A stretch of 64,000 bases of DNA from Chitinophagales bacterium (GTDB taxonomy: Bacteria > Bacteroidota > Bacteroidia > Chitinophagales > UBA10324): contig JACDDS010000011.1 in NCBI GenBank assembly GCA_013816805.1, forward strand, positions 1-64,000, in the 5' to 3' direction. Below the pieces are notes generated by a model. It was not told where the DNA came from. It saw only the letters and a list, made by a program, of their open reading frames with translations, and searched no databases. A program made the translations under genes and the position numbers. Below are positions 3,586 to 14,264 of this stretch, piece after piece; within the stretch, counting starts at the first letter, position 1, and each line of letters begins with the position of its first letter.

Positions 3586-6500
3586 TTATTTAAGAATGAC
3601 CAATTTTTCATACCTATCAGCCTTGAAACCATTTGCAGCTCTTACCGAAAGCTTATAAACATATACTCCCTTTCCTATAGGATCGCCGTAATCGTCCTTG
3701 CCGTCCCAGTAGATTCCATTCACCCGGTAACCGCCTTCAGCATCTCCAACGCCAAAACCCGAACCGGAAGTATTTACAGATTGGGGAACAATTGCCTGTT
3801 GCATGGTTTTTACCAGCTTCCCTGAAACCGTATAAATCTGAATCATAACATTAAGCACCGCACCCGGCATATTGTGCTCAAACATAAATTCAGTACGAGT
3901 AGTAAAAGGGTTCGGATAGTTCAGCACGTGCGCTAAGGCCATTGAGGCAGATGTAGAAACCACAAACTGTGTTAATGCCTGGGAAGAATTATTATACACA
4001 TCCCAGGCCTTAACATTTAGTGTATGCACGCCTTCCGCCAGGCTGGTTAAAGGATAACGCACTTCCCCTGATTGGTAGCTGTCTAAATCGGTTGAATAAA
4101 AATTGTTCATGTCCAAAGTATTCTTAGTATCATTATCGAGCACAGCAGTTATATCGTGGCCAATACCAGTACCGACTGTATTAAGCCCGCTTGAATCGAT
4201 CAACTTAACCAGGATCGTCGGGTTTGGATCTGTAATCCCGCCAAATACAAAGCGTTCGTCATTCATATATACTTTAACCTGCGGTCCTGAAACGTCATGT
4301 GCTACCGAGTCTGATATCCCCCCTATCACAATATCATTCTTATATCCTGAAGCATCTATAACACCGTTATCGGCATAGTAGCTGATTTTTCCGTAACCGA
4401 ACTGATAAGAAATATCTTTCGGCACAATAAAAGAAAAACTAAAAACCCCATTGCGAACGCTTGCCTTACCATTATAGATCACGTTCTTTTGTAAAACAAA
4501 GCTTCTTACATAGCTTGCTTCGTCGTTAGCCAGGGTCTGGTAAAGCTGCGGCTTATCATAAATAGTTGGAAAAATAACGCCATTAAAGTCCTGCATTACA
4601 TTACCGTTAAAATCATTTATGGTTCCGCTTACCGTAACCTTTTGAAGCGCTTTCATGGTATCAGGAACTGATGTTAGGGTTTTACCTTCAATGGCTGTAG
4701 TGTTTATATTGTATTGCGGGTAATCCAAAGTAATGGCAGGATCCCCTATAAGTGTGAACTTCCTGTTATTGGTATCACCGCTGATCTTGTTTTTGCCTCT
4801 CCTGAATACTTCGCCCAAAGGTGGAATAATACCGTTTTTTGCTACAAACACATTATCCATAAAGGCCTGATTCATCAATTTATTTGCAGATGAATACACC
4901 AGGCGAACGGTAGTTACCAATGCAATGGCACCTCCTTTTGCATTTAAAAGCAGCTGCTCTCCTGCCGATACTATGGACGGATTATCATACACTGTAAAAT
5001 CGCAGGTGGCGGTTACAAACAGGGTAAGCTTATTTAAATTCGTGTAATTCTGAATCTCTGTAAGATTCATGATGCGCTCATGCCCTAGTCCGCCGGTGCC
5101 TCCATGACCAACATAATTAAACAGAAGGGTGCCCCCGTTAATTTGATTATTTATTGCAATGTTGACCTCAGGATAACGTGCTCCTCCCGGAATTTGCACT
5201 TGCTTATACGCATCTAAATAGATCTTATCGATGTTATACACCGGGTGAGCATTGCCCGTATTTGTTGCGATCTCATCACAGTCATTTATGTGCACATCAT
5301 TATCTTCATCATCTGCAACAAAGGTGAGCACATTGCGCCAGTTTCCTAAAGATTGGGGAGCCGCATAGATTTTTATTTTATTTATTACAACAGATGCCTG
5401 GTCAGTATTGTTAACCGGAAGCCGGCCTATCGCAATATCCACTTTTGCTGCCGGATCGAGAATGTTTCCCCCTTCGGTTACATCTAATAATCCGAAAAAA
5501 TCGTCTGATACAAAGGAGCTGGTAGGGCTTAAGGAATTGGAGCTCTCGTAAGCAGGAATTAAGCTGCTATTTCCGGGTATATTTTCCTTATTATCATAGG
5601 AACCATCTCCAAAAAGAAGCAGGTATTTGGGCATTAATACCGAATCACCATTAGCCCGAACGTAAAACATTCGTATGAAATCACGAATAGCAGAAAGGTC
5701 TTTTGCCCCTGCTGAAAACTCATTATATATCTGCTCCACTGAAACTACATTCACGGATTGGCTGAATTGATTCCGGTGGAAATTTCCCAGGTCTTCTGCC
5801 GAAGACCTTAACAGGTCGGGGGTAATAATAAACAGGTCAGACTGGCTAAGAGAATGCAAGTCCTGGTTTAATATTTTGCCTGCTATTTCAGGCACCATAC
5901 CTTCACTATTTGAAAAAATTACAAATTCATGAAGCGTGTCAGTAGCTACCGTAAACTGGCTCTGGTTACCTGTGAAATTCATGGATTCACTCACGACATT
6001 AGTAGACTTGGTAACATCCCACGTTAATAAATTACTATTTGTATTGCTGATAGTGAATTGAGATACTTTTCCTATACCCATGGATGCAGCACTCCTGAAA
6101 TTCATTTGCGAGCCATTCCACGAAAGGTTACTCACAACGTTAATCTCAATATAATCGAGATACCCAACAGCATCCTGAGAATTCTTATTATAATCCAGTT
6201 TTACTGTAAGCGTACCCGGGGCAGGATAAAATACAGATTGCAATACAGAGCCATTTGCATATCCGCAAGTATAATCGGCGCATACCGCTGGAATGGATTG
6301 GGCAGCTATTAAGCTTTGGCCATTTACAGATAGGGCAAAGCTATTGCTGGCATATATACTTCTGGAGGCTACGCTGGCGGTTACCGTGCCCTGTGAGCCT
6401 GCAACAATATTTGGAAAAGTAAAGGGAACGGATACCGCAGTCTCAAAATCAAATTTTTCGCCAAACCATTGCCTTCCACTTTGAAGGAGATTTTCCAGAT

Positions 6501-7464
6501 CCAATTCATGAAAAGCATAATCATCAAAGGTATTTACAGCAAAATTACTGGCTTCACCTGAACTGTAATCCTGCACCCGTTTTCCGGCGCCCAAATCAGT
6601 AGTAATAAAATAATAGGTACTCTTGGAGTAAAGATTAGAGATATGACTGAAGCGCTTTAAGGCTGCATCATATTTCCACCTGTCCGGACTCTGTCCGTAA
6701 AACAATACGTAATCGCCATCATCAAACTTCCCATCTTCTTCACCCACTACTTTTATAGCATTCTCCTGCAAATCATCATAACGAAAGAAACTATTTGGCT
6801 CAGGTAACATGCCACCGCCGTTTCCATAAATACGAATGTTGCGCGGATCAATTGATGTTGTACTGATTCCCAGGGTTTGCAGGAATGACTTATCTATCTT
6901 GTAAATACCATCCTTACCTACAGCTATTTTATACCATGTTCCAGTTGCCAATACGGAGTGGGCAACATAAGAATTGGTGCTTCTTAAGGAAGTACCGGCT
7001 TCCGGGGTTACGGTTAGTGAATAACTGAATGAAACCAGCCTTTCAACAATTCCAGTAGCAGGATTTCTCCGGAAAGGAAGAATGGCAACCAAAGCAATAG
7101 GTCTGGTGCGTTCAAATCCATTATTTACCGTTATAACCGGTGTATTTTTAATCGGATCGAAATCTTTTCCCGTGAATCCTTTTAACTGCGTGTTTACCAG
7201 AGCATATACAGCATTGTAAAGCGTAACATTCACCTTTCCAGGCAAAGAAAGGCGGATTGATGCCTCAAAAAGCGGCAGACGGCCAAATTCATTTTCATGG
7301 TAAACTGCACCTTCAAAATAAAATGCATTATATATTTTATAATCGGAAAACTCTGATTTCAACAGCGTATCTGACCAGAGTAATTTTTGCGAATAGGAAT
7401 TTACCTGGCTATAGGAAGAATAATAAATAAGCAATGCAATAATGAGAAAGGAGTACTTCTGCAT
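3586..7464 (-). CDS. porU: Type IX secretion sortase PorU (C25 gingipain-like)
   Basis: PorU is the surface sortase of the T9SS. It removes the C-terminal sorting domain of cargo and, in Porphyromonas, joins the cargo to A-LPS. The 1292-residue protein has a signal peptide (~1-20), a long beta-rich N-terminal region, and a C25 peptidase domain in the middle. The catalytic pair is visible: His787 in YVGHGGTG and Cys821 in VTATCDF. The C-terminus (about 1200-1292) is an FlgD-like Ig fold starting LNYPNPF and ending with GVYVYKL...YEKLVILK. It is divergent from the PorP/SprF gene across a 122-bp intergenic region and is followed by porV. Confidence 0.96.
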   Translation of the reverse strand: MQKYSFLIIALLIYYSSYSQVNSYSQKLLWSDTLLKSEFSDYKIYNAFYFEGAVYHENEFGRLPLFEASIRLSLPGKVNVTLYNAVYALVNTQLKGFTGKDFDPIKNTPVITVNNGFERTRPIALVAILPFRRNPATGIVERLVSFSYSLTVTPEAGTSLRSTNSYVAHSVLATGTWYKIAVGKDGIYKIDKSFLQTLGISTTSIDPRNIRIYGNGGGMLPEPNSFFRYDDLQENAIKVVGEEDGKFDDGDYVLFYGQSPDRWKYDAALKRFSHISNLYSKSTYYFITTDLGAGKRVQDYSSGEASNFAVNTFDDYAFHELDLENLLQSGRQWFGEKFDFETAVSVPFTFPNIVAGSQGTVTASVASRSIYASNSFALSVNGQSLIAAQSIPAVCADYTCGYANGSVLQSVFYPAPGTLTVKLDYNKNSQDAVGYLDYIEINVVSNLSWNGSQMNFRSAASMGIGKVSQFTISNTNSNLLTWDVTKSTNVVSESMNFTGNQSQFTVATDTLHEFVIFSNSEGMVPEIAGKILNQDLHSLSQSDLFIITPDLLRSSAEDLGNFHRNQFSQSVNVVSVEQIYNEFSAGAKDLSAIRDFIRMFYVRANGDSVLMPKYLLLFGDGSYDNKENIPGNSSLIPAYESSNSLSPTSSFVSDDFFGLLDVTEGGNILDPAAKVDIAIGRLPVNNTDQASVVINKIKIYAAPQSLGNWRNVLTFVADDEDNDVHINDCDEIATNTGNAHPVYNIDKIYLDAYKQVQIPGGARYPEVNIAINNQINGGTLLFNYVGHGGTGGLGHERIMNLTEIQNYTNLNKLTLFVTATCDFTVYDNPSIVSAGEQLLLNAKGGAIALVTTVRLVYSSANKLMNQAFMDNVFVAKNGIIPPLGEVFRRGKNKISGDTNNRKFTLIGDPAITLDYPQYNINTTAIEGKTLTSVPDTMKALQKVTVSGTINDFNGNVMQDFNGVIFPTIYDKPQLYQTLANDEASYVRSFVLQKNVIYNGKASVRNGVFSFSFIVPKDISYQFGYGKISYYADNGVIDASGYKNDIVIGGISDSVAHDVSGPQVKVYMNDERFVFGGITDPNPTILVKLIDSSGLNTVGTGIGHDITAVLDNDTKNTLDMNNFYSTDLDSYQSGEVRYPLTSLAEGVHTLNVKAWDVYNNSSQALTQFVVSTSASMALAHVLNYPNPFTTRTEFMFEHNMPGAVLNVMIQIYTVSGKLVKTMQQAIVPQSVNTSGSGFGVGDAEGGYRVNGIYWDGKDDYGDPIGKGVYVYKLSVRAANGFKADRYEKLVILK

Positions 7465-7586
7465 GAAGAGATTTGTATTAATTAAATTTCATATCAGGGA
7501 TTCTTAAAAAAATATCGTTCTTTAACGTATTATACTAAAGTTTATTTTTCAGCGTAGTCTAACCACAATTAAACTCAATTGCTGCA

Positions 7587-8609
7587 GTGAGAAGGATCGC
7601 AATATTAGCTATTATTTTATCGGGTCTCACAAAAATACAGGCTCAGGATGTAGTATTCAGTCAATTCTATAATACTACGCTTTATCTGAATCCGGCGTTC
7701 GCCGGAATAAGCGGAGGCCCCAGGCTTACCGCGTTATACCGCAACCAATGGCCTTTATTAGGAAATGCCTATTCCACCTATTTAGTTTCATATGATCAGT
7801 TTTTAAATCAGATTAACAGCGGTGTAGGCGCCATAGTTTCATCAGATGTACAGGGCGGTTTTTATTACACGAATAGCATTACCGGGATGTATGCCTATCA
7901 GATACAACTGAATGAAAATTGGGCGATAAATGTGGGACTTCAGGCAGCTTTTATGCAGAAAAGAATACAAACGGACAAATTGGTTTTTGCTGAAAATATT
8001 AACCTTGGAAATGGATCTGTCAACAATTTTCCCAGTAAGGATATTCCGGATAATCCTACCCGATCATTTGCTGACTTTGGGGCCGGTGCACTTTTTTTCA
8101 GTAAAAAAGTTTTTATCGGTTTTGCAGCAAAGCATCTTTCGCAGCCAAATGAATCTTTTGATAATACATTGCCGGAGCATTTGCCTATTTGTTATGATGC
8201 AAATGCAGGGATAGAGCTGCGCTCCGGCAACTACAGCTCTTCATCCTTTTTTTCGCCTAATATCATGTACGCTCAGCAGGAATTTTTTAAACAGGCAACA
8301 GGCGGCTTTATCACAGGTATAAATGTTTTTTATGCAGGTTTATACTACCGGTATGCTTTCGGAAAAAACAATGCAGCCTCTGTTCAGTCAGATAGCATTA
8401 AAGCCAGCAACTCATCCGCCTTTATCCTTCTCGCAGGATTACAAAAAGGGATCTTTAAAATTGGTTACAGCTATGACATAACCCTTGGCGGGTTAAGCGG
8501 AACAGGAGGAAGCCATGAAATTTCTGTTACACTCAATTTTAATGATTCGAAAAAATCCAGGGAAAAAAACCAGAGGAAAAAGCTTACCGAGTGTCCTAAA
8601 ATGTTTTAA
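7587..8609 (+). CDS. PorP/SprF family outer-membrane protein
   Basis: This is a 340-residue outer-membrane beta-barrel of the PorP/SprF family. Members anchor T9SS type B cargo or form part of the secretion and gliding machinery. A signal peptide ends near IQA (residue 19), followed by the family start QDVVFSQFYNTTLYLNPAFAG and LYRNQWP, then amphipathic strands to a polar, lysine-rich tail. The start is a GTG at 7587, since no ATG lies near the signal peptide. It is divergent from porU and co-directional with gldJ. Several paralogues are normal in this phylum, so which cargo it serves is unknown. Confidence 0.9.
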   Translation: MRRIAILAIILSGLTKIQAQDVVFSQFYNTTLYLNPAFAGISGGPRLTALYRNQWPLLGNAYSTYLVSYDQFLNQINSGVGAIVSSDVQGGFYYTNSITGMYAYQIQLNENWAINVGLQAAFMQKRIQTDKLVFAENINLGNGSVNNFPSKDIPDNPTRSFADFGAGALFFSKKVFIGFAAKHLSQPNESFDNTLPEHLPICYDANAGIELRSGNYSSSSFFSPNIMYAQQEFFKQATGGFITGINVFYAGLYYRYAFGKNNAASVQSDSIKASNSSAFILLAGLQKGIFKIGYSYDITLGGLSGTGGSHEISVTLNFNDSKKSREKNQRKKLTECPKMF

Positions 8610-8715
8610 TACCCGCAACCACTGTGTTTTTGGGCAACTGAAATACATCAGAATTCCATTATTGCCTTATTCTTACTGAATCAATTAATCAGGTTTTCGC
8701 TTGCACTAAATCAAT

Positions 8716-8723
8716 TACTTTTG
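8716..8723 (+). promoter_or_regulatory. Probable -7 promoter element of gldJ
   Basis: TACTTTTG matches the Bacteroidota TAnnTTTG -7 consensus and lies 40 bp before the gldJ ATG. A TTTT at the position expected for the -33 TTTG gives partial support. It suggests gldJ is transcribed apart from the upstream PorP/SprF gene. Confidence 0.5.
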
Positions 8724-8763
8724 CGTTAATCCCTTCTACATTTTACAATTACTTAAGACAAAC

Positions 8764-10251
8764 ATGCTAAAGCATTCATTTTTTTTATCAGGACCAATAA
8801 TGTTAACAGCGGTAGCTTGCCTGTTCATTTTGAATTCCTGCAAGAATGAAAAATCTACCGCTACAGGATGGAACTATAACGATTCTAAGTGGGGAGGATT
8901 CGAAGAACATAATTATAAAGGACAGGAAAACGGTCCTAATCTAGTGCTCATATCCGGCGGCTCCTACGTAATGGGCAATACTGAGCAGAACATAACTTAC
9001 GATTACGATAATGTACCGCGTAAAGTAACGGTTGCTTCTTTTTATATGGATGAAACGGAGGTAGCAAATATTCACTATCGCGAGTATTTATTCTGGCTAA
9101 ATCGAATTTTTGGGGCTGACTTTCCTGAAATTTATCGGCGTGCTTTACCCGATACCATGGTTTGGCGTGATGAGCTGGCTTATAATGAACCATACGTAGA
9201 TTACTACTTCCGCCATCCTGCCTATAATAATTATCCTGTGGTAGGTGTTACCTGGGTGCAGGCCAATGAATACTGCAAGTGGCGAACGGACAGGGTTAAC
9301 GAAGGCATCCTAATGCGCGAAGGAATTCTGGAAAGAAACCCGAACCAGGTAGATGCTGATAACTTCAATACCGGATCTTACCTTATTGGGCAATACCAGG
9401 GTACGGTTAAGAAAAACTTAAAAGATTACAGCCCAAATGGCACGGGTGAAAGACCAGTAAGAGTAGAGGATGGAATTTTGCTGCCGGATTACCGGCTCCC
9501 AACCGAAGCGGAATGGGAATATGCTGCATTAGGATTGATCGGCAATAGCGCATATAAAGGCGAAGAAATTATTACCGATAGAAAGATATATCCATGGAAC
9601 GGCAAAAACCTCCGGGATCCCTATCATAATAGTGCACAGGGAAAATTTCTGGCAAACTTTAAAAGAGGAGGTGGTGATATGATGGGTATTGCAGGAGGCT
9701 TAAATGATAATGCTGACATTCCCGGGGAGGTTACATCCTTTGTACCTAATGATTTCGGGTTGTATAACATGGCCGGTAATGTGAGTGAGTGGGTGGCGGA
9801 TGTATATCGGCCTACCACCTTTTATGATGCAAGTGATTTTAACCCTTTTCGGGGAAATATCTTCATGAAAGATTCTCTGGATGCAGAAGGCACCCATGTA
9901 GATAAGGATTCTATGGGCCGTGTTGTGCGGATTCCGGTTTCTGATAAGGAAAGTGCTAATCGCCTGAACTACCGCCGTGGAAACGCGATCAATTTTATGG
10001 ATGGAGATACGATGTCTGATGCCACATATAACTACGGAGTTACCACGCTTATAAATGATAATGCACGGGTTTACAAAGGCGGCTCCTGGAATGACCGGGC
10101 CTATTACCTCTCACCAGGCACCCGCAGGTTTTTAGATGAGAACCTGGCTACAGCAACCATTGGCTTCCGATGCGCAATGGTTCGGGTAGGCAGCCCTGCA
10201 GGAAATAAAATCCCATCCGGAAATAAAATAAAGGAGTTCAAAACCAGGTAA
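8764..10251 (+). CDS. gldJ: Gliding motility lipoprotein GldJ
   Basis: GldJ is an outer-membrane-associated lipoprotein with a formylglycine-generating-enzyme (FGE-sulfatase) fold. It is needed for gliding and T9SS stability. The 495-residue product has a lipobox LNSC with the lipidated Cys at residue 26, then the GldJ-specific TGWNYNDSKWGGFE segment. Next come GPNLVLISGGSYVMG, DETEVANIHYREYL, PVVGVTWVQANEYC, LPTEAEWEYAA and a C-terminal GGSWND...GFRCA. These are the FGE fold markers, but the catalytic Cys pair of true FGE is not expected in GldJ. Placement beside porU/porV is the conserved synteny seen in Flavobacterium. Confidence 0.94.
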   Translation: MLKHSFFLSGPIMLTAVACLFILNSCKNEKSTATGWNYNDSKWGGFEEHNYKGQENGPNLVLISGGSYVMGNTEQNITYDYDNVPRKVTVASFYMDETEVANIHYREYLFWLNRIFGADFPEIYRRALPDTMVWRDELAYNEPYVDYYFRHPAYNNYPVVGVTWVQANEYCKWRTDRVNEGILMREGILERNPNQVDADNFNTGSYLIGQYQGTVKKNLKDYSPNGTGERPVRVEDGILLPDYRLPTEAEWEYAALGLIGNSAYKGEEIITDRKIYPWNGKNLRDPYHNSAQGKFLANFKRGGGDMMGIAGGLNDNADIPGEVTSFVPNDFGLYNMAGNVSEWVADVYRPTTFYDASDFNPFRGNIFMKDSLDAEGTHVDKDSMGRVVRIPVSDKESANRLNYRRGNAINFMDGDTMSDATYNYGVTTLINDNARVYKGGSWNDRAYYLSPGTRRFLDENLATATIGFRCAMVRVGSPAGNKIPSGNKIKEFKTR

Positions 10252-10371: not shown

Positions 10372-10761
10372 CTAAATAAATTTCCTGACTAGAGTTTCTG
10401 CTCCGCTTTTCAGCAGTATTATATATAAACCGTTTGGAACAGCAGGATCCATGTTTATTTCTTCTTCAATACGGTTTTGATTTTTAATACTGATGCGGAA
10501 TAAAATACTTTACCCACTAAATTAACCATTTGGACACTGCACGACCTTTCAGAATTTTCATCGAATTGTGCACTTAAAAAAATATGATCGCCGGCAGGAT
10601 TTGGATAAATAGTAAAGCTTGCTCTAAAAGCATTGTAAGAAGCATAATCTTCTCCTTTACAGTTACTAACTACGCTTACGGTATCTACAGTGCGATGCTA
10701 AGGGAGAGAAGAAATAAACAAAGTACGCTTTCCGAAAGCCTAATACACGTTCCTGAAACAT
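10372..10761 (-). pseudogene. Internally deleted T9SS cargo paralogue (start plus sorting domain only)
   Basis: On the minus strand, 10372 to about 10710 encodes a decayed copy of the C-terminus of the neighbouring gene at 11038-14007. It shows SNCKGEDY, then FTIYPNPAGDHIFL, VNLVGKV and, after a one-base frameshift near 10500, PNGLYIILLKSGAETLVRKFI before a TAG stop. The upstream end is an ATG at 10761 with about 20 signal-peptide-like codons (KAYFVYFF), joined out of frame to the sorting domain. The sequence before this ATG also aligns with the leader of the intact gene. The simplest reading is a tandem duplicate that lost about 2.6 kb of its centre. Confidence 0.8.
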
Positions 10762-10779
10762 TAGTAAAAATTAATGATT

Positions 10780-10900
10780 AACTTATAAGGGGTACGGTGT
10801 TTACTTATGGGAAATAAAAGGTTTAACTCCATTTAACCATCTCATAATCATATATATAGATGTAATAATAAACTTATAATTTTTTTTAATTTTTATATTT
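10780..10900 (-). promoter_or_regulatory. Relic leader/promoter shared with the gene at 14007
   Basis: This AT-rich stretch aligns base by base with 14020-14125: GATTAT start, an imperfect GGTTAA...TTAAACC hairpin at 10820-10838, then CACC(G)TACCCC and AGTTAA before the ATG. The -7 box has changed from TATATTTG to TATATATG and the -33 TTTTG is lost, so the promoter is probably dead. Confidence 0.65.
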
Positions 10901-11037: not shown

Positions 11038-14007
11038 CTACTTCCTGCTTACAATAAATTTTTTTATATAAACGTCTTCGCCATTTTTAATATAAACCAA
11101 ATAAATCCCTTCCGATACTTCGGGGCTGATCTGAATTTCCGTATCCATTTCATCTCCTATAAATGCCACTGCAGTCGAGCTTACTGTTACTCCAATAAAA
11201 TTTTTGATCTCAACAAGGCATAATTCTTCCTTTGGTTGTTTAAAAGAAACATGAATATTAAGGAGATCCTGTGCCGGATTTGGAAAAAGGGACAGTTCTC
11301 TAAATTCACCATTAATTATATTAGAATCATCCTCCCTGCAATTACTGGTGAGTGTAATGGTATTGGAAGTATTTATGCATCCGTTGCCATCCGTAATAAG
11401 GCAGGCATAATTACCGGAAGATGTCGCTACGTAGGTGGACAATATAGCGCCGGATATATTAGTCTCATTTTTTTGCCACTGATAATTATAACCCACATCA
11501 ACAGAAGCAGTTAAAAGTTTTGTAGCTCCCTTGCAGATATTGGTTGATCCTGAAAGTGAAATTTTAGCTTTCGGAAGTTTCCAGACAATGATGGTTAGCG
11601 GATCAGAGGTATTCTGACATACAGCATCCAATATTTTAACCGTGTAATTGCCTGACGATAAAGGCGTATAGGTTTTAGCTATAGCACCGCTGATATCCTT
11701 ACCGTTTTTTTCCCATTGATAACTGTAACCAGCAACACTTGATTTTAACACGCTCGGTGCAATACCATCACAATAAGACGGCGGGCCCGATAAAATAACC
11801 TTAGGCTTGGGAAGGGTGCTTGCAGAGATTATAATGGCATTCGAGGTTCCGGTACATCCGTAATCTCCGGTTGCCGTTACTGAATAAGTTCCGGCATCGG
11901 CAGTCTTCAATACTTTACCGGTTTTTCCTGAAGACCAAACATAATTTTTATATCCATCATTTGCCGTAAGCGTTTCCTCTTCACCTGAACATACTGTTAA
12001 TGGACCTGCGGGCGTTACGGTAATTACCGGTAACGGATATATGGTTATATTCTGAGTATCGGAATTCGCTTTGCAGCCATATTCATCCGTTATAGTAAGC
12101 CAATAATTTCCGGAGCTTGTTACCTTTAAAAGAGAAGAGGTTGCCCCTGTATTCCACAATAAAGAATAACCTGTAAGATCACCCGGGTCCAGTGAAATTG
12201 GTTTACCCTGACAAGCCGATTTACTTCCGTCTATTTTTATTTTAGGTGATTTTGGCAAGGGATTAACGGTAACCATTACCGTATCAGCGGTAGCATATCC
12301 ATTGGTAATATTACGCACCCTCACCCAATACATGCCTGAAGATTCTACAGTAATATTCTTTGTAGTTTGCCCGGTAGACCATTCGTATTCTGAATAACCA
12401 CTGCTGGCCTTTAGTAACACAGATTCACCCTGGCATATGCTGACCGGACTTTTTGGTGAAATACTGACCTGGGGGGGTGGGGGAGCCGGAATACCGCTTC
12501 CCGATATTCTTAAAACAGAATAGGGTTCGAGAGTAACCAGGGTGTCCGCTGCCTTTATTTTTTTGGTAGTATAAGTTAGTTCAGGCTCAGAGGCAATATA
12601 TTCCATAGGATCGCCCGCATATTTCTCCTGAGTGCCTCCATTTGGAAAGAGATCTTTTATATTTATTTTATAAGAAGAATCTGAAACATTTACTACCAGC
12701 AGATCGGCTGTTTTATCATCTGTCAGAAACCAACCCAGAACCGTTTTATAGGTTACCATTTCACCATCGTAATTAAAAGTTAACACAGGGCACTTATCAA
12801 ATACAAGAGGAGAAGCGTATTTCTTGTTTTCGATAGCCTTGCCTATTAGTTGCATTACGGATCCGCCTGCAGTTAAATCCCAAGCCACAGTAGGCTTTGG
12901 ATGAGGTGGCGGAATATAACCATCCTTTCCACCGTAGTTGAACCCTTTGGTATTATCGAAATAGGAGCCGTGAACAGCAGAGCCCACGGTTTCAAAATCA
13001 TGGAGGTTCGTAATTCTCCAGTCATTTAAAAACATCAATGTGTATTCCGCCAAAAATAATCCATGGGCCCATGTACCCTCTACCGGCCGTTTGGTATCCG
13101 TAAGGTTATACTCTGTAATCCATACCTGGTCCCACGGTCGAAGGATAGATAAATCTTCTGTAGCAAGAATATCCCAGGCTTCATTTGGGCGATAGAACAT
13201 TTCAGGCAGATCACTTGATAGAAAAGGCAATCCAAGTGAATCTATAAGGGAATCACCCGAAGCAGCTGAATAGTAGCAATGGTACGTTATAACATCCTCG
13301 TGCTTCAAAGTGGTAAACATGCTTTCATCCCATGTCTGTCTTCGGGTGGCGGATGTTTTATTGAATGCGCCAACTGCTCCGATTTTACATTGGGGAAAGT
13401 AATGATGGATGGTATCTATCCATTGCGTACATACTGACCCATAAATGGCTGCAGTAGGAAAAACTTTATACGCGACGCTGTCATCCGGGGTAGGATCCAG
13501 GAAGAATTCATTTCCCAGCTCCACATATTTAACAGGCAATCCTATTGAATCAGCATGTTTAAGCATGGCTACCTGGTCCGCAAGAGTGGAAGTAATCATG
13601 TTTACCACAAACAGTGGTTCCGCATTCGCAGAATCCAGAAATACCTTTAAGCTCTCAAGAGTGTTTGGCTTCTTCACCTGTTTTTGATGCTTCATAGGAA
13701 CAATGGAAGAATCTAAAAACCATCCTGTATGCCAGTCCCACCAGTTAGCAATACCCCCGCCTGGATACCGGTAGACTTTCCCATGAAGTGCCCCTACATG
13801 TGTAAGCAGGTTATGGTTAATAATAGACATGCCATCTTCGGTAGTGTTGGTAGCATTGTAGCCTATAAAGGTGGGATCTAAAGGTGTACGTGTTGTTAAA
13901 GCCGGAGTGATTAAAGGCGGTTGAGTCTGAGCATATCCATTGGAATAAAAAATCAGGAAAAAAATAAAATAGAGTTTTCCCGAAGCGTTAGTAACGTTTC
14001 GCAGCAT
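11038..14007 (-). CDS. Secreted clan GH-A-like glycoside hydrolase with Ig-like repeats and T9SS sorting domain
   Basis: This 989-residue secreted protein has a signal peptide ending near residue 26 (YAQ). A TIM-barrel domain of about 30-410 follows, with two Glu placed as in clan GH-A enzymes: Glu167 in ELGNEFF (likely acid/base) and Glu299 in WITEYNL (likely nucleophile). The segment YRYPGGGIANWWDW fits GH39/51/79-type barrels. A beta-sandwich lies at about 420-510. A proline-rich linker then leads to five Cys-containing Ig-like repeats (about 515-890), several with an SSGxYxV-type strand. The end is a type A sorting domain (LSLFPNPAQDLL...IYLVYIKNGE...KKFIVSRK). Substrate is unknown; arabinofuranosidase- or glucuronidase-like activity is a guess. 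PorU/PorV nearby would process it. Confidence 0.82.
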   Translation of the reverse strand: MLRNVTNASGKLYFIFFLIFYSNGYAQTQPPLITPALTTRTPLDPTFIGYNATNTTEDGMSIINHNLLTHVGALHGKVYRYPGGGIANWWDWHTGWFLDSSIVPMKHQKQVKKPNTLESLKVFLDSANAEPLFVVNMITSTLADQVAMLKHADSIGLPVKYVELGNEFFLDPTPDDSVAYKVFPTAAIYGSVCTQWIDTIHHYFPQCKIGAVGAFNKTSATRRQTWDESMFTTLKHEDVITYHCYYSAASGDSLIDSLGLPFLSSDLPEMFYRPNEAWDILATEDLSILRPWDQVWITEYNLTDTKRPVEGTWAHGLFLAEYTLMFLNDWRITNLHDFETVGSAVHGSYFDNTKGFNYGGKDGYIPPPHPKPTVAWDLTAGGSVMQLIGKAIENKKYASPLVFDKCPVLTFNYDGEMVTYKTVLGWFLTDDKTADLLVVNVSDSSYKINIKDLFPNGGTQEKYAGDPMEYIASEPELTYTTKKIKAADTLVTLEPYSVLRISGSGIPAPPPPQVSISPKSPVSICQGESVLLKASSGYSEYEWSTGQTTKNITVESSGMYWVRVRNITNGYATADTVMVTVNPLPKSPKIKIDGSKSACQGKPISLDPGDLTGYSLLWNTGATSSLLKVTSSGNYWLTITDEYGCKANSDTQNITIYPLPVITVTPAGPLTVCSGEEETLTANDGYKNYVWSSGKTGKVLKTADAGTYSVTATGDYGCTGTSNAIIISASTLPKPKVILSGPPSYCDGIAPSVLKSSVAGYSYQWEKNGKDISGAIAKTYTPLSSGNYTVKILDAVCQNTSDPLTIIVWKLPKAKISLSGSTNICKGATKLLTASVDVGYNYQWQKNETNISGAILSTYVATSSGNYACLITDGNGCINTSNTITLTSNCREDDSNIINGEFRELSLFPNPAQDLLNIHVSFKQPKEELCLVEIKNFIGVTVSSTAVAFIGDEMDTEIQISPEVSEGIYLVYIKNGEDVYIKKFIVSRK

Positions 14008-14065
14008 CCTAGAGATTTTGAGTTAACTGTTTTGGGGTAGGTGTTTGGTTCTTAGCAGTAAAAAA

Positions 14066-14085
14066 GGATTAACCCCTTTTAATCC
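14066..14085. promoter_or_regulatory. Conserved inverted repeat in the leader of the GH-like gene
   Basis: A perfect 7-bp inverted repeat (GGATTAA/TTAATCC, 6-base spacer) lies just downstream of the predicted promoter. The relic copy at 10820-10838 keeps the hairpin with changed bases in both arms. It may be an operator or an RNA hairpin. Confidence 0.45.
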
Positions 14086-14094
14086 GTTTATAAT

Positions 14095-14125
14095 CAAATA
14101 TATATAAGTCACAGAAAAGTCAAAA
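14095..14125 (-). promoter_or_regulatory. Promoter of the GH-like gene
   Basis: On the minus strand TTTTG and TATATTTG are spaced by 20 bases, close to the Bacteroidota TTTG-N19-TAnnTTTG consensus. The predicted transcript has a leader of about 80 nt before the ATG at 14007. Confidence 0.6.
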
Positions 14126-14264
14126 TTTTTTTTATTTTTTAACTCTGTGCATTTTTAAAGTACGCCGTTCCTTATTCCTCTACTCGCTAATAGATCTATT
14201 TTTTTAAATCCATATTAAAAAGAATGATTAAATTACAATCCAAAAAATAGATTGGAATACAATC

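Follow-up and report, generated by a model that had tools for sequence, protein, structure and literature searches.

The DNA examined comes from a Chitinophagales bacterium (assembly GCA_013816805.1; 3.57 Mb in 31 contigs), and the window, meaning the whole stretch that was analysed, covers positions 1-64,000 of contig JACDDS010000011.1. It holds an intact gene for a 989-aa T9SS cargo protein and, adjacent to it, on the same strand and with the same order of parts, a relic that retains only the ends of such a gene. T9SS core genes resembling porU, porP/sprF and gldJ (window positions 3586-10251) directly adjoin the cargo gene and the relic. At least 150 type A sorting domains are encoded in the 3.57-Mb genome, which amounts to a very large T9SS secretome. 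The features at the locus are as follows.

10375..10500, reverse strand: relic, second half of the sorting domain, in the other of two frames, ending at a stop close to the counterpart of the gene's C-terminus
10458..10697, reverse strand: relic, linker between Ig-like and sorting domains (SNCKGED) and first half of the type A sorting domain, in one frame
10691..10711, reverse strand: putative deletion junction zone, where homology to codon ~17 stops and homology to codon ~882 starts
10711..10761, reverse strand: relic, coding start through codon ~17 (signal peptide region), which aligns to 13957-14007
10762..10900, reverse strand: relic, promoter and leader; identity to the intact gene's leader 65-73%, both sigma-ABfr boxes off consensus
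11038..14007, reverse strand: intact paralogue, a 989-aa T9SS cargo protein with a signal peptide, a predicted clan GH-A-like glycosidase domain, Ig-like repeats and a type A sorting domain
14008..14146, reverse strand: intact gene, promoter (TTTG-N18-TATATTTG at 14095-14124) and leader

The sorting domain of the intact neighbour exceeds the cut-off in both the PF18962 and TIGR04183 libraries, and it is the sole match of the whole protein in NCBIfam. The 491-aa N-terminal domain (12448-13920, reverse strand) had no sequence match in Pfam or the PDB. An AlphaFold2 model of the catalytic domain (pLDDT 81, pTM 0.86) was compared with the PDB using Foldseek, and the structures retrieved were GH51 arabinofuranosidases and GH79-like glucuronidases and heparanases, with a best E of 3.7e-22 and a TM of 0.64. 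GNEF and TEYN motifs are conserved in the family with invariant Glu residues, which would suit the roles of acid/base and nucleophile in clan GH-A. Judged by predicted fold, the enzymes would be clan GH-A-like glycosidases, and on that basis the sequence-only reading of this locus was right to label the domain catalytic. The neighbour is like GH51/GH79 clan GH-A glycosidases in its modelled fold and in both motifs, although its identity to them is 12-16%, and the relic lacks the entire domain. The catalytic domain may represent an undescribed glycosidase family; the genome has four copies of it, and related genera have others.

Upstream of the intact gene, TTTG-N18-TATATTTG constitutes a full sigma-ABfr type promoter according to the consensus of PMC6847099, and between the two leaders it is the intact copy only that matches this consensus. 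Since approximately three chance occurrences of the pattern are expected in the window, the intact promoter is notable only by its place directly upstream of a gene. A perfect inverted repeat with 7-base arms (GGATTAA-N6-TTAATCC; 14062-14081, reverse strand) lies just downstream of this promoter and is possibly a regulator site; its version in the relic is imperfect.

The two ends of the relic were tested separately, at the DNA and protein levels, against shuffles, the whole genome and relatives. At the 5' end, 10711-10900 aligned with the intact gene from its promoter and leader through the start codon to codon ~17. The local score was 126, whereas 1000 dinucleotide shuffles had a mean of 30 and reached 51 at most, bearing out the earlier claim that this part corresponds to the leader and signal peptide region of the neighbour. 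With the A/T tract left out, the score was still 84 versus 36, and the alignment of 10711-10790 with 13950-14035 scored 35, a value reached by 0 of 1000 shuffles. By blastn, the relic's leader and that of 11038-14007 were identical at 87 of 120 positions (73%; E 2e-13). The start codons align (ATG at 10761 in the relic, ATG at 14007 in the intact gene), and identity per 30 columns runs at 19-21 up to the coding start, falls to 16 in the following block and collapses at ~10711. The relic bases aligned to the intact promoter boxes are TATA and TATATATG, so that 3 of 10 consensus positions are altered, approximately the background divergence; such changes would be consistent with an absence of constraint.

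When a model built from both leaders was searched against the 3.57-Mb genome, two places matched (E 5e-32 and 4e-30) and the next match had an E of 0.15. A leader of this type was absent from the genome's three other family members and from the members found in relatives. With two copies in the genome and none at the other family members, the leader is a local repeat and not a common promoter type of the genome; a genome-wide leader family is thereby ruled out. An RNA element within the leader was also considered and rejected, as Rfam gave no match at gathering thresholds and folding of the leader was no better than that of shuffles.

At the 3' end, 10375-10691 encodes a T9SS type A sorting domain over two frames. 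The two frames were joined for the PF18962 (Por_Secre_tail) profile search only, where the domain was recognised with an E of 1.6e-10 and 41.5 bits against a cut-off of 27, in agreement with the sorting domain first proposed here; each half by itself fell under the TIGR04183 cut-off. The relic thus has a C-terminal domain of the kind carried by T9SS type A cargo (PF18962 / TIGR04183), recognisable once both frames are read, but differs from such cargo in that the domain is split between frames and comes directly after the signal peptide region. Its four best non-self matches in the genome were the neighbour (C11; 51 bits) and the family paralogues on C2 (49), C10 (46) and C1 (38), followed by a next match at 36 bits. 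In a genome with so many type A sorting domains, these four are exactly the four members of the neighbour's enzyme family, so we consider the relic a fifth member of it. Protein identity between the sorting domains of relic and neighbour is 27%, and the paralogues on C2 and C10 are nearly as close. DNA similarity across this domain was marginal, being equalled by 9 of 1000 shuffles, and a sorting-domain tree was weak, with long branches, and did not place the relic beside the neighbour. In the nucleotide alignment proposed in the sequence-only reading, the 5' part stands far above shuffles and the 3' part is marginal.

Between 10711 and 10691, ~860 of the 989 codons of the intact gene are missing, namely those of the catalytic and Ig domains, and no catalytic or Ig homology was found anywhere in the relic. 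The start piece (10669-10761) and 10375-10500 share one frame, and 10458-10697 is in another. No ORF in the ORF list spans the relic, and frame changes and stops leave none usable, so the original suggestion that standard gene calling would miss it holds. A search of the relic DNA against its own genome returned the self match only, and no copy of the relic was found in a plasmid search. Both ends are homologous to, and collinear with, those of the neighbour, the interior is lost, the frames are broken and the shared leader is unique to the two copies. The locus is accordingly, as originally described, an internally deleted T9SS cargo relic that keeps a leader, a start and a sorting domain.

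We regard it as highly probable that the relic is a decaying pseudogene, left by an old tandem copy after its divergence and the loss of its interior. An ancestral secreted-glycosidase gene would have been duplicated head-to-tail along with its promoter and leader, and both copies would then have diverged, probably while functional. A deletion in the downstream copy would then have removed ~2.6 kb of interior, with every catalytic and Ig-like domain, and fused codon ~17 to codon ~882; frame changes, stops and substitutions in the promoter boxes would have accumulated in the resulting stub. A leader confined to the relic and its neighbour supports a tandem origin and points to the neighbour as the relic's closest sister, and we infer that the duplication occurred in place and not by transposition. 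This step and the presumed order of events (duplication, divergence, deletion, decay) are the weaker ones in the pseudogene account. Because the sorting domain is 27% identical and its DNA is barely above chance, the relic copy was ancient and not a fresh duplicate. The tandem duplication and collapse proposed earlier are thus partly supported, through the unique shared leader, but not as a recent event. Like other bacterial pseudogenes formed by internal deletion after tandem duplication, the relic has homologous ends, a lost interior and broken frames; it differs from these in that the copies are much diverged, as befits an old paralogue. Beyond the leader and coding part, the flanks of the two copies, both 3' and upstream, share no sequence and thus give no endpoints for the duplicated unit.

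The sorting-domain tree and the unshared flanks count against this account, and so does a difference between the two ends. The leader has ~70% DNA identity to that of the neighbour, far above the 27% protein identity of the sorting domain, and the ends could therefore have different histories: the neighbour's leader and start, copied or gene-converted at a later time, might have been placed next to a decayed tail that belonged to a different family member. The C2 paralogue, nearly as close as the neighbour in the sorting domain (49 versus 51 bits), would suit such an origin. However, the ends are collinear, lie on one strand and meet within ~20 bases at points homologous to a single gene, and identity is uniform through the leader and start. 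Promoters and leaders can also remain conserved as sorting domains drift, and we consider separate origins unlikely.

It is considerably less likely still that the stub is a working small gene, in which leader, signal peptide and sorting domain would be expressed via frameshifting, or a decoy regulator site. The start codon, hydrophobic start and terminal stop are still in homologous places and the frames overlap, yet two frame changes would be needed, both promoter boxes are off consensus, the leader RNA folds no better than shuffles, and the relic has an imperfect version of the palindrome-like element found in the intact leader. Selection for a minimal export-tag product, or for a decoy that copies the regulatory leader of the neighbour, is equally improbable, and the stub appears to be without present function. 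An assembly or sequencing error within a real intact or short gene is hardly credible: the assembly is in 31 contigs and the frame changes could be indel errors, but the large genes nearby are all open, ~860 codons are missing, and the relic and its neighbour differ far too much to be a mis-assembled repeat.

The enzyme family was sought in 60 relatives from genera other than that of the source genome. Related family genes are carried by 7 of the 60, all seven from the source's own taxonomic family. Three of these genomes (G003, G001 and G008; loci L048, L049 and L050) contain a head-to-tail, same-strand pair made up of a 1922-1966-aa form and a 980-987-aa form. These intact pairs, which the sequence-only reading had suggested looking for, lie at different loci, in genera other than that of the source, and they therefore indicate that the family forms tandem pairs, not that the relic's locus once held an intact pair. 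In a catalytic-domain tree, the four members of the present genome form one clade (97/96), and thus the family has expanded in this lineage. The order of the porU-porP-gldJ cluster is kept in most relatives, and in the relatives searched no family member was found within ~1.5 kb beside gldJ or the polymerase gene. Adjoining the pair in G003 (L048) is an 871-aa gene that begins almost identically to the 869-aa gene following the long C2 paralogue (L055); these near-identical starts point to the ancestral location.

Among the titles listed in literature searches on T9SS cargo pseudogenes, none concerned relics of such genes. As read from sequence, the relic would be an ordinary dead gene in a readily duplicating family, and our understanding of T9SS would be unchanged by it. 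On a small scale, it shows cleanly how members of a T9SS cargo family are born and die, and it illustrates how annotation misses sorting-domain remnants. Of more specialist interest is the intact family, a predicted glycosidase without a family model.
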